Origin: a bacterium BMS3Abin14
Lineage (GTDB): Bacteria; BMS3Abin14
Assembly: GCA_002897695.1 (NCBI GenBank)
Contig: BDTG01000005.1
Location: forward strand, 1-64,000
Direction: 5' to 3'
Length of the DNA: 64,000 nucleotides
Below the pieces are notes generated by a model. The model made no database searches. It was not told the origin of the DNA and saw only the letters and a list, made by a program, of their open reading frames with translations. Made by a program: the position numbers and the translations under genes. Numbering within the stretch: the stretch's first letter is position 1; every line of letters starts with the position of its first letter. Shown piece by piece: positions 14,364 to 18,234 of the stretch.

Positions 14364-16175
14364 CTACAGGGACAATGGCGGGATTCCTTCCTCGCTCCAT
14401 CCCCTCTGCTTATAGTAGAGATCCAGGATCTCCTCGTACTCCTCCCTGGACACTACGCTCCCTTTTCTGGGCCCTGACGGTACAGGGTCATCAAATGTGC
14501 GCCTGGGCGGATAGTCGTCCTTGCGGCCGATCCCCAAGCGGACGTTGATGGCCCGGGTAAGATCGAAGATATGGTTGGAACACCGGGCCAGTTCCTCCAT
14601 GGACCTCTCCACCCCGGTGACGGCCTTATAGAACCTCTGATAATACTCCTCGGGAAAACCAAGCTCGATCCATGGAAGACGACAGACCCCCAGCATGTCG
14701 AAAAGGGGCCGGATTGTCTGATGGTAGATGACGAGATCCGCCTTTTCCGAAAGACTCCAGCCGATGCCGTTCTCAAGTTCGGAGGCGACCGTCCACGATC
14801 TGGTGTGATGCGCGCCTATATCCGAGGTCCCATATCCCAGCGCCATGGAGACGGCCGCCCTGGAATCGTAGGCCGACTGTTCAAGCCCCTTGACGTGGGA
14901 CAGGATCCCGTCCAGCCCCGGCCACCTGGCAATAATGGCCTTCGCCCCTCCAGCGAGGGTGTCGCCGACGCCGTCACGACGCGCTATTTTTTCAATGAGC
15001 TGCAGGATCGTCTCCTCATCGCCCCAGGACAGCAGCATGCCGTCAAGATCTTCCTGCGTAACAACACCCTTTTCCTGGCCCTCGATCATGGCGCCTACAA
15101 TAGACCCCGATGAAATCGTGTCCAGCCCCAGGTCGTCGCAGAGGGAATTTGCCTTCAGAATGCAGGCGAAGTTGGAGACCCCCAGGTTGCTCCCGAGCAT
15201 GGCGGCGGACTCATACTCCGGTCCCTCGGTCACCGTGCCCCGGTATTTTCCCTCCTTGACCAGGCAGACATTTCCGCATGACATTGAGCATCCAAAGCAT
15301 GCCGTGTCGCCGATCTTGTAGCGGTCCTCCATGACGTAGCCGTTCATCCTGTCGGCACGATCAAAGGAGGTCTCCTGGAAATTCCTCGTGGGCAGGATTC
15401 CCATGGAGTTGGCATAATCGATCACCGACATGAGCCCCTGCTGCTGCCAGAACCGGAAAAGCCCATGGGATTTTAATAGATCGTAGCCCTCGCGGGACAC
15501 CTCAACCAGAGCGCCCAGATCATGAACGGGCAGGTCCCTGGAACCGCGGACAGCAATGGCCTTCACGTTTTTCGACCCCATCACCGCGCCGATGCCTATA
15601 CGACCGGCATTTCTGCTCCAGTCGGCATTTACGCAGGAGAATACGGCCCTGTTCTCCCCGGCCACGCCTATGGAGGCGATTTTCATGTCCTCGTCACCAG
15701 TCACCCCGCGGACCAGAGCTTCCGTCTCGATGGTGGTCCTTCCCCTGGCCTCGGGGATGGGGATGATCCTGACACGATCGTCCTCGATGGTAAGGGCCGA
15801 AAGTTCAGGGGCACGGCCCCGAAGCACTACCGCATCGTAACCCGCCTGGCGCAACTCCACGCCGAAAACGCCTCCCATGCTGCTGTCGCCATAGATCCCG
15901 GTCGCCGGAGAAAGGGTGATAAAGGAGTTCTTTCCCGAGGCGGGCAGATACAGACCTGTGAAGGGACCTGGGGCTATTACAAGGATGTTTTCCGGCCCAA
16001 GGGGATCAATCCGGTTTCCATGTTTTTTCACGTTGTCGGCAACAAGACGAGCGCCAAATCCGCGGCCGCCGATGTACTGAAGAGCGAAATCCTCATCGAA
16101 GGAACGGACGGACGATTCGCCACGGGAAAGATCAACCTCCAGAATTTTAAAAAAATACCCGCCCTTAAGTTTCAT
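14364..16175 (-). CDS. aor: Aldehyde ferredoxin oxidoreductase, tungsten/molybdopterin
   Basis: The start is placed at ATG 16175 (603 residues), where MKLKGGYFFKILEVDLS begins the family N-terminus and the frame overlaps the ferredoxin gene's end by 11 bases. It has GGRGFGARL, SGKNSFITLSPATGIYGDSSMGG (pterin contacts) and the [4Fe-4S] ligands CFGCSMSC plus a fourth Cys in DMLGVCRLPW. The length matches the 600-residue family. It oxidises aldehydes to acids, or runs backwards, giving electrons to ferredoxin. The neighbouring polyferredoxin is the expected partner. Cofactor choice (W or Mo) cannot be read from sequence alone, though the AOR family is mainly W. Confidence 0.92.
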   Translation of the reverse strand: MKLKGGYFFKILEVDLSRGESSVRSFDEDFALQYIGGRGFGARLVADNVKKHGNRIDPLGPENILVIAPGPFTGLYLPASGKNSFITLSPATGIYGDSSMGGVFGVELRQAGYDAVVLRGRAPELSALTIEDDRVRIIPIPEARGRTTIETEALVRGVTGDEDMKIASIGVAGENRAVFSCVNADWSRNAGRIGIGAVMGSKNVKAIAVRGSRDLPVHDLGALVEVSREGYDLLKSHGLFRFWQQQGLMSVIDYANSMGILPTRNFQETSFDRADRMNGYVMEDRYKIGDTACFGCSMSCGNVCLVKEGKYRGTVTEGPEYESAAMLGSNLGVSNFACILKANSLCDDLGLDTISSGSIVGAMIEGQEKGVVTQEDLDGMLLSWGDEETILQLIEKIARRDGVGDTLAGGAKAIIARWPGLDGILSHVKGLEQSAYDSRAAVSMALGYGTSDIGAHHTRSWTVASELENGIGWSLSEKADLVIYHQTIRPLFDMLGVCRLPWIELGFPEEYYQRFYKAVTGVERSMEELARCSNHIFDLTRAINVRLGIGRKDDYPPRRTFDDPVPSGPRKGSVVSREEYEEILDLYYKQRGWSEEGIPPLSL

Positions 16176-16698
16176 CCTTTTTGCCCTTCTCTTTTGTGTA
16201 ATGAAGGATCTTCTTCTGACCTCCATCCATATACTCCACCTTGCTCATCCTGGCGTAATGCTTTGCTGTGGAGAGCCTGTGCGCCTGGCCCATAATATGC
16301 CTGGGATGGAACTTCAACGCCTCCTTGGGACAGGCCTCCACACACAACGGCGCACCATCACAGAGGTCGCATTTAAGGGGCCGATCCAGATCCTCGTGCA
16401 GAAACATGGCGCCGAATGGACAGGCAGTAATACACTGATTGCACGAGATGCACCTTTCCTCGTCCAGGCGCACAACACCATCCTCCCGATAGATGGCGTG
16501 GGTCGGGCAGCTCTCGCCGCACTTGGGCACTCCACACTGCCTGCACACAATAGGCATTCGTATAACAGGATGTGGATAGAGGACCATGACCCTCATCCTG
16601 CTTTTTTTGGGATTATTGACGCCCTCCCGCCCGACGCTGCAAGCGAGTTCACAGACCTTGCATCCCGAACATCTCTCAGGAATAACCGTCAACTGCAT
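16165..16698 (-). CDS. Four-cluster ferredoxin subunit of the AOR complex
   Basis: The 177 residues contain four ferredoxin-type Cys sets: CSGCKVCELAC, CRQCGVPKCGESCP, CISCNQCITACP, and CDLCDGAPLCVEACP. This is the HycB/DmsB-like electron-transfer fold. It starts behind a strong GGAGG site and its stop lies inside the AOR gene, so the two are translated together. Family knowledge: such subunits carry electrons from AOR to another redox partner. The basic tail (HYTKEKGKKDET) is unusual but short. Confidence 0.9.
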   Translation of the reverse strand: MQLTVIPERCSGCKVCELACSVGREGVNNPKKSRMRVMVLYPHPVIRMPIVCRQCGVPKCGESCPTHAIYREDGVVRLDEERCISCNQCITACPFGAMFLHEDLDRPLKCDLCDGAPLCVEACPKEALKFHPRHIMGQAHRLSTAKHYARMSKVEYMDGGQKKILHYTKEKGKKDET

Positions 16699-16997: not shown

Positions 16998-17222
16998 ATG
17001 GGCGATAAAATCCTGATCTACGGAAAATCCACGTGACCTTACACTAATGAGGCCCGTGAGGCCTACAGGGCGAAAGGTGTGAAGGTGGACTACCGTGATG
17101 TAAAGTCCAATCCCGTGTTTCTCGATGAGATGCTGGAGATTGGAGACGGGAACAGGAGAGTTCCCGTCATTGTTGACCATGGAAAGGTTACCGTCGGCTA
17201 CGGCGGCACCTGAGGGGTCTAG
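16998..17222 (+). CDS. UXX-star selenoprotein with two UGA-selenocysteines
   Basis: Reading UGA as Sec, the frame has 74 residues: MGDKILIYGKST-U-PYTNEAREAYRAKG ... RRVPVIVDHGKVTVGYGGT-U-GV, then TAG at 17220. The first UGA (17034) sits at the glutaredoxin redox position (UPYT in place of CPYC). The second (17211) is three codons before the end. The body is a complete thioredoxin-fold glutaredoxin (VPVIV cis-Pro, VGYGG). It has a strong ggggg ribosome site. The wording matches the UXX-star selenoprotein family as I know it. Hairpins sit at bSECIS distance after both UGAs. It needs SelA/B/C/D, which are not in the window. A conventional gene finder would miss it. Confidence 0.85.
17050..17064 (+). 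promoter_or_regulatory. Candidate bSECIS hairpin after the first UGA
   Basis: AGGCC-CGTGA-GGCCT forms a perfect 5-bp stem beginning 13 bases after the UGA at 17034. The loop holds a G-U-G. Distance fits bacterial SECIS elements; loop identity is looser than in the second hairpin. Confidence 0.5.
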
Positions 17223-17224
17223 AT

Positions 17225-17242
17225 AACCGGCGGACGCCGGTT
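17225..17242 (+). promoter_or_regulatory. Candidate bSECIS hairpin after the second UGA
   Basis: AACCGGC-GGAC-GCCGGTT is a perfect 7-bp stem with a loop starting GG. It begins exactly 11 bases after the UGA at 17211, the spacing known for the minimal E. coli fdhF SECIS. It lies past the TAG, so it is kept by RNA need and not by coding. No T-run follows, so it is not a standard terminator. Confidence 0.65.
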
Positions 17243-17245
17243 CAA

Positions 17246-17857
17246 CTACCGCTCCTGAGCACTGACGGGCGGCGCCAGGAGCGACTCCACGGGCTCCGAT
17301 CCCATATTCCGCACCAGCACAAAACTCTTTATCAGGCTTTTGTTCACCGCCAGAAAGGAGTGGATGAGCTTCGCTTGGTCGAACACCTCGCTTATGCCCG
17401 GGTCGATAAGGGCATCTAGCTTCTCCGTGGTATTCCAATCCGTGAGGACTCCCATGAAATCATGGCGCTGGGCAGGGACCAGCGCTCTTTCCAGACACAT
17501 TTCAACGTCCTCGGCGATCTTCTTGACGGCAACAACGCCTGAAATCTTCTCCAGCGTCACCAGTTCCATGGAAACGTAAAGGTTGACCTGGCTTCGCCTC
17601 TCGTATCTGGCTCTTTCCGACTTGGTACTGCGGGGACACACGTAATCCCTTACTCCTACGATGAAATCCTTGTTCACGTGATGTCCATCCACCGTTTTCA
17701 GGATTTTGGATGGTCCGTTCAGGATTCTTATCAGTCCCTCTCCCTCGATCTTGGCGTGAAGAACCTTCCGGCGGTATCGTTTGATCTCCTCGTAGCCGAA
17801 TACACCCATGGGATATTCGGGGAAGATGGAAATATATTTCGTGGACTCAGTGGGCAT
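17246..17857 (-). CDS. Protein of unknown function
   Basis: With ATG 17857 the product has 203 residues, starting MPTESTKYISIFPEYPMGVF, five bases after the membrane gene's stop. An in-frame start further upstream (17947) would overlap that gene by 80 bases and is less likely. The protein is soluble, with mixed helix and strand, many charged residues and only two Cys, far apart. I recognise no family. It ends head-on against the selenoprotein (23 bases apart). Coupling to the membrane protein suggests a shared role. Confidence 0.6.
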   Translation of the reverse strand: MPTESTKYISIFPEYPMGVFGYEEIKRYRRKVLHAKIEGEGLIRILNGPSKILKTVDGHHVNKDFIVGVRDYVCPRSTKSERARYERRSQVNLYVSMELVTLEKISGVVAVKKIAEDVEMCLERALVPAQRHDFMGVLTDWNTTEKLDALIDPGISEVFDQAKLIHSFLAVNKSLIKSFVLVRNMGSEPVESLLAPPVSAQER

Positions 17858-17862
17858 AAAGG

Positions 17863-18234
17863 TCAGATCCAGGCGAAAACCGCCGCTCCGGTGACTACGA
17901 AAATCAGCCCCCACAACCTCAGCCCCATCTCGGAGATACCCAACCATGTGGCGATCAGCGCCCGGACCGTCTGCTCGTTACCCACCAGGAAGAAGACCCC
18001 TTTTCCGACAATCAGGATGCCAATGATAAAAAGAAACCACACCACACCGCTCCAGAACGAGGCGACTGTCAACAAAACGCCGAAAAGGGCGATGGAACCT
18101 CCCCATACCTTCAGGTTGGCCTCAGCGGCAAACCATTGAAGAAAATCCCTTACCTTTTCAGTGTGGAGAACCATGGCACTGCCAATGGCAATCCAGAGAA
18201 CCGATACGATAAAAAGAAACCACACCATTTCCAT
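17863..18234 (-). CDS. Small four-helix membrane protein
   Basis: The 123 residues form about four membrane helices (MVWFLFIVSVLWIAIGSAM; WGGSIALFGVLLTVA; VVWFLFIIGILIVGKGVFFL; LRLWGLIFVVTGAAVFAWI) with an amphipathic link in each half. The two halves look alike (VWFLFIVSVLW and VWFLFIIGILIV), suggesting internal duplication. No family is recognised. It is co-directional with the soluble gene at 17246. Confidence 0.65.
   Translation of the reverse strand: MEMVWFLFIVSVLWIAIGSAMVLHTEKVRDFLQWFAAEANLKVWGGSIALFGVLLTVASFWSGVVWFLFIIGILIVGKGVFFLVGNEQTVRALIATWLGISEMGLRLWGLIFVVTGAAVFAWI

Follow-up and report, generated by a model that had tools for sequence, protein, structure and literature searches.

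The locus lies at 16998-17242 of the window, that is the whole 64,000-nucleotide stretch of contig BDTG01000005.1 that was analysed, where a short open reading frame containing two in-frame UGA codons is predicted to encode a selenoprotein of the UXX-star family 1 (Table 1). The frame starts with ATG and is directly preceded by the A/G-rich sequence AAGGGGGAAAAA, which resembles a ribosome-binding site. Each UGA is followed by a hairpin whose loop starts 18 nt downstream. Re-examination of the sequence returned the coordinates that a preliminary description had assigned to the ATG, both UGA codons, the TAG and both hairpins, as well as the hairpins themselves: a 5-bp stem beginning after a 13-nt spacer from the first UGA (UGA1), and a perfect 7-bp stem with a GG-starting loop, 11 nt from the second UGA (UGA2) and past the stop codon.

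Table 1. Features of the UXX-star locus (positions in the window)
Feature	Position	Strand	Remarks
Aldehyde:ferredoxin oxidoreductase (AOR)	14364..16226	-	AFOR_N + AFOR_C; divergent neighbour
4Fe-4S dicluster protein	16165..16698	-	divergent neighbour; present at most loci of the phylum
UXX-star family 1 selenoprotein ORF (predicted)	16998..17222	+	74 residues if both UGAs are decoded as Sec, then TAG
Sec-UGA 1 (predicted)	17034..17036	+	residue 13, UPYT redox site; Sec in 73/82, Cys in 9/82 genes
SECIS 1 (predicted)	17050..17064	+	5-bp stem (17050-17054/17060-17064), loop CGUGA; inside coding sequence
Sec-UGA 2 (predicted)	17211..17213	+	residue 72, GGTUGV-stop; Sec in 80/82 genes, never Cys
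Terminator TAG	17220..17222	+	family-wide: UGA 40/82, UAA 29/82, UAG 13/82 genes
SECIS 2 (predicted)	17225..17242	+	7-bp stem (17225-17231/17236-17242), loop GGAC; wholly 3' UTR, in the 23-nt gap before the convergent gene

Judged from its sequence, the gene is a member of an already catalogued family. With Cys substituted for Sec, its product scored 113.9 bits (cut-off 72) across all 70 positions of the NCBIfam model NF041114 ("UXX-star selenoprotein family 1"), which bears out the earlier assignment to UXX-star, and 88.1 bits (cut-off 66) against the broader Uxx_star model. Scores against UXX-star family 2, family 3 and the HUGP/GUXX-star fusion stayed below their cut-offs (49.5/100, 52.1/97 and 52/325 bits, respectively). 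A 2026 review enters NF041114 as a UxxT protein with two Sec and calls it distant Grx-like protein 1 (PMC13188914). Both Sec positions of this type are present here, in UPYT (residue 13) and in UGV-stop (residue 72), and we read the name UXX-star as a C-terminal Sec-x-x-stop, in this case U-G-V-stop.

The preliminary description had made its reading depend on a host equipped for Sec insertion, and tRNA-Sec, SelA, SelB and SelD were all found in the host genome (2.28 Mb, 49 contigs), with SelA adjoining SelB on one contig and SelD carrying an in-frame TGA of its own. The UXX-star gene occurs in 10 of 12 genomes of the phylum, with two in-frame TGA in all 10; among 148 genomes drawn from another phylum, each of the 42 matches above the cut-off contained one or two. 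Genome contigs were scanned with a query carrying X at both Sec sites, which allows any residue to match. This gave 143 relatives, and 80 loci were kept, from Acidobacteria, Deltaproteobacteria, Nitrospirota, Spirochaetes, Bacillota and others; the phylum-matching contigs of the named collection were uncultivated metagenome-assembled genomes (MAGs) such as SZUA-178 and SZUA-204. Together with the phylum genes, and counting the present one, these formed a family set of 82 distinct genes. Viral contigs and plasmids, searched with Cys for Sec, contained no relative. Two further matches, G126:C34:10384-10593 and G092:C72:14275-14484, lie within long frames of 387 and 435 codons when TGA is read through and are possible fusions. 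One genome that already has a copy contains a second, partial match (L028, G005:C1:541768-541863), which enters a masked stretch of N.

Among the 82 genes, the residues at sites 1 and 2 were Sec/Sec in 72, Cys/Sec in eight, Cys/Ser in one and Sec/Gly in one. Cys was never found at site 2 (0/82), and the GV and the following stop were kept after UGA2 in every gene. No gene carried sense codons other than those for Cys or Sec at both sites, the pattern that the preliminary description regarded as contrary to its proposal, and the Cys/Ser gene was the single one of the 82 to lack Sec. In this gene (L089:4001-4222) the SECIS-type hairpin has gone as well. SelB scored above the cut-off in 16 of 20 relatives' genomes, and the Cys/Ser genome (G028) was one of the four without it, although MAGs may be incomplete; the gene has likely lost its Sec together with the trait. 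The Sec/Gly gene (L091:327-539, G029) retains Sec1 and the hairpin after the stop, and its site 2 codon GGA, a single base from TGA, would be a recent mutation or a sequence error.

A published model of bacterial SECIS elements describes a loop of 3-9 nt, a stem of 4-16 bp, a G in the first two loop positions, a distance of 16-37 nt from the UGA and an energy of -7.5 kcal/mol or lower (PMC13188914). Hairpin 2 fits this model (4-nt loop, 7 bp, GG, 18 nt, centroid -11.4), as does hairpin 1, near the energy limit (5-nt loop, 5 bp, CGU, 18 nt, centroid -8.0). The upper stem-loop of E. coli has an 11-nt spacing (PMC8659212). Folding of the present sequence alone lent little statistical support (over 40 nt, hairpin 1 had z = -0.16 and hairpin 2 z = -1.11, the latter reaching -2.61 over 50 nt), so that the case for two SECIS elements is carried by the relatives. 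A search of the region against Rfam found no SECIS family, its sole match being a chance tmRNA hit (E 0.54).

For hairpin 2, 66 of 80 genes carried a G[G/U]-loop hairpin 16-21 nt 3' of UGA2. Dinucleotide shuffles gave 0-7 such hairpins per 80 genes, and the ordinary stops that end long ORFs at these loci gave 5/350. The scan was simple and allowed no bulges, and it passed no hairpin in 14/80 Sec2 and 33/73 Sec1 genes. In 18 ungapped relatives sharing the same register, both sides had changed in all six pairs counted, and 98.1% of cells paired, a figure inflated by the choice of this class on hairpin position; no such selection affects the comparison with ordinary stops. The covariation score was reached by none of 500 shuffles and was abolished when the partner was slid by 1-3 columns. 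The consensus fold of the phylum again gave hairpin 2, in which 5/8 pairs show compensation in one or more sequences, and no terminator-like tail or T-run followed it. Bacterial SECIS elements lie typically or often in the coding region (PMC13188914, PMC10778597), and 3'-UTR versions have been described for engineered constructs (PMC10778597, PMC3834832). A natural one was not described in the literature that we surveyed, a survey that did not include Haft and Tolstoy 2025 or Haft and Gwadz 2023. The position of hairpin 2 had been called unusual and free to evolve; a SECIS-type hairpin beyond the stop is instead the rule in UXX-star family 1, and only the letters of its stem drift, with spacing, pairing and the GG/GU loop being kept.

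The evidence for hairpin 1 came partly from codon choice. A SECIS-type hairpin was detected 16-21 nt 3' of UGA1 in 40/73 Sec1 genes but in 0/9 Cys1 genes. The loop opens with the Arg20 codon, CGU (17055-17057), and in 69 of the 70 Sec1 genes that have Arg here this codon is CGU, AGG or CGG, giving an NG[G/U] loop; the conserved Arg53, taken for comparison, uses these three in only 47/79. The Arg20 bias is absent in Cys1 relatives, and the GCC codon for Ala19 is found in 66/73 Sec1 genes against 3/9 Cys1 genes, the p-values of such comparisons being indicative only because the genes are related.

An AlphaFold2 model built with 44 relatives and Cys for Sec (pLDDT 87.8) displayed the order strand-helix-strand-helix-strand-strand. 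The protein scored 46 bits against the Pfam glutaredoxin model (cut-off 22.9), and its best fold matches in the PDB were glutaredoxins, two of the top three with bound glutathione. The glutaredoxin fold of the preliminary description was thereby retained, but not its completeness, as the last helix is missing from the model. In glutaredoxins the proline loop adjoins the redox site and contributes to glutathione binding. The DSSP line, in which residues 54-55 and 72-73 are strand or bridge, suggests pairing of the C-terminal tail next to the conserved V55-P56 in the model.

The AOR gene is indeed a neighbour, as had been noted; it is found at the corresponding position in eight further loci of the phylum and lies farther off in one Desulfosarcinaceae locus. 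Membership of the UXX-star gene in an AOR operon was rejected, because the two genes are on opposite strands and diverge. Clustering of 487 neighbouring ORFs revealed no family-wide partner gene, and a functional link between UXX-star and AOR is a possible lead inside this phylum only. The convergent gene 23 nt downstream (17246-17947, minus strand) is kept beside UXX-star in five loci of the phylum and had no Pfam or NCBIfam match.

Taken together, these results lead us to propose, with high confidence, that the locus encodes a small glutaredoxin-fold redox protein of UXX-star family 1 whose mRNA carries two SECIS elements, each serving the UGA that precedes its loop by about 18 nt. Sec insertion at both UGA codons, as predicted from sequence conservation, is well supported; the redox role may be proposed from the fold. 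UGA1 and UGA2 would be decoded as Sec13 and Sec72, a step with strong support among the relatives, each SECIS directing SelB and Sec-tRNA to its own UGA. The placement of SECIS 1 in the coding sequence and of SECIS 2 beyond the stop appears equally strongly supported. Because SECIS 1 sits inside the reading frame, the Ala19-Arg20 codons would double as stem and loop; because SECIS 2 lies past the stop codon, its stem would be free to vary as long as pairing holds. The terminator 9 nt after UGA2 is itself a UGA as often as in the background (40/82 genes versus 163/350 ordinary stops). Since half of the genes thus end on UGA, we infer that spacing lets hairpin 2 recode UGA2 and spare the terminator, which is 9 nt nearer. 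At the protein level, Sec13 would act as the nucleophile of a monothiol-type site, UPYT having no second Cys, and the tail bearing Sec72, placed near the glutathione groove in the model with Cys for Sec and presumably within reach of Sec13, may resolve the intermediate as a Sec13-Sec72 diselenide. Recoding at Sec codons reaches 30-40% in E. coli (PMC4513850); two recodings in series would leave about 10-16% full-length product if they were independent and E. coli-like.

The view that both UGA codons arose as sequencing errors, or that the gene is a pseudogene, could appeal to two in-frame stops in a short ORF; both UGAs recur in 72 distinct genes, which come from many phyla and are strongly conserved in protein and RNA. 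This already refutes it, and we give it practically no weight. It is also highly improbable that only UGA1 encodes Sec, UGA2 being a true stop after ...VGYGGT and hairpin 2 a terminator or an accident. Hairpins close to stops can be terminators, and this one lies between convergent genes, but the T-run is lacking, ordinary stops are rarely followed by such a hairpin, and Sec at site 2, the GV-stop after it and the GG/GU loop at its fixed distance are all maintained across the family.

A reading that deserves more attention, albeit less likely than a redox couple, is that both Sec are made and that their selenols serve chiefly as a pair of metal or metalloid ligands. The review cited above considers that Sec in SaoB, SaoC and UXX-star may be metal-binding ligands (PMC13188914), and site 1 does lack the second Cys of dithiol glutaredoxins. 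However, no metal-resistance gene recurred as a neighbour in the relatives examined, and, given the glutaredoxin fold with its kept redox-site position, a redox function is no less likely.

The gene belongs to a kind already catalogued, and what is added here is family-wide evidence on how its two SECIS elements are built. The family offers a natural experiment on the rules of bacterial SECIS elements, with one coding and one non-coding element on the same mRNA. Covariation in the untranslated element reveals what is kept: a stem of about 6-8 pairs and a GG/GU loop at 16-20 nt from the UGA. That UGA terminators lie so close by hints at how sharply the choice between Sec and stop depends on spacing, and the family also cautions that residues shortly after a Sec may owe part of their conservation to the RNA. 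On this basis, we consider it probable that UXX-star genes form a natural class of mRNA in which most or all of SECIS 2 falls within the 3' UTR, that spacing alone separates the UGA at about 18 nt from a UGA stop 9 nt nearer, and that Arg20 is kept at least partly as the loop codon of SECIS 1.

By its score above the model cut-off, its UxxT site, its two Sec and its Sec-x-x-stop end, the present protein resembles UXX-star family 1 (NF041114) and differs from it in nothing essential, its particularities being its origin in an uncultivated phylum and a conserved divergent AOR neighbourhood. With selenoprotein glutaredoxins of the UxxC type and with cGrx1 of Clostridium oremlandii, it shares the glutaredoxin fold and a first redox position occupied by Sec or Cys, but it has no second Cys at the site, carries a second Sec at the C-terminus and is missing the last helix. 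The closest likeness to its 3' end is found in engineered TrxR1 constructs, where a C-terminal Sec-UGA and a stop are likewise followed by an untranslated bacterial SECIS (PMC3834832, PMC10778597); those constructs were designed, whereas the UXX-star arrangement is natural and conserved across many phyla.
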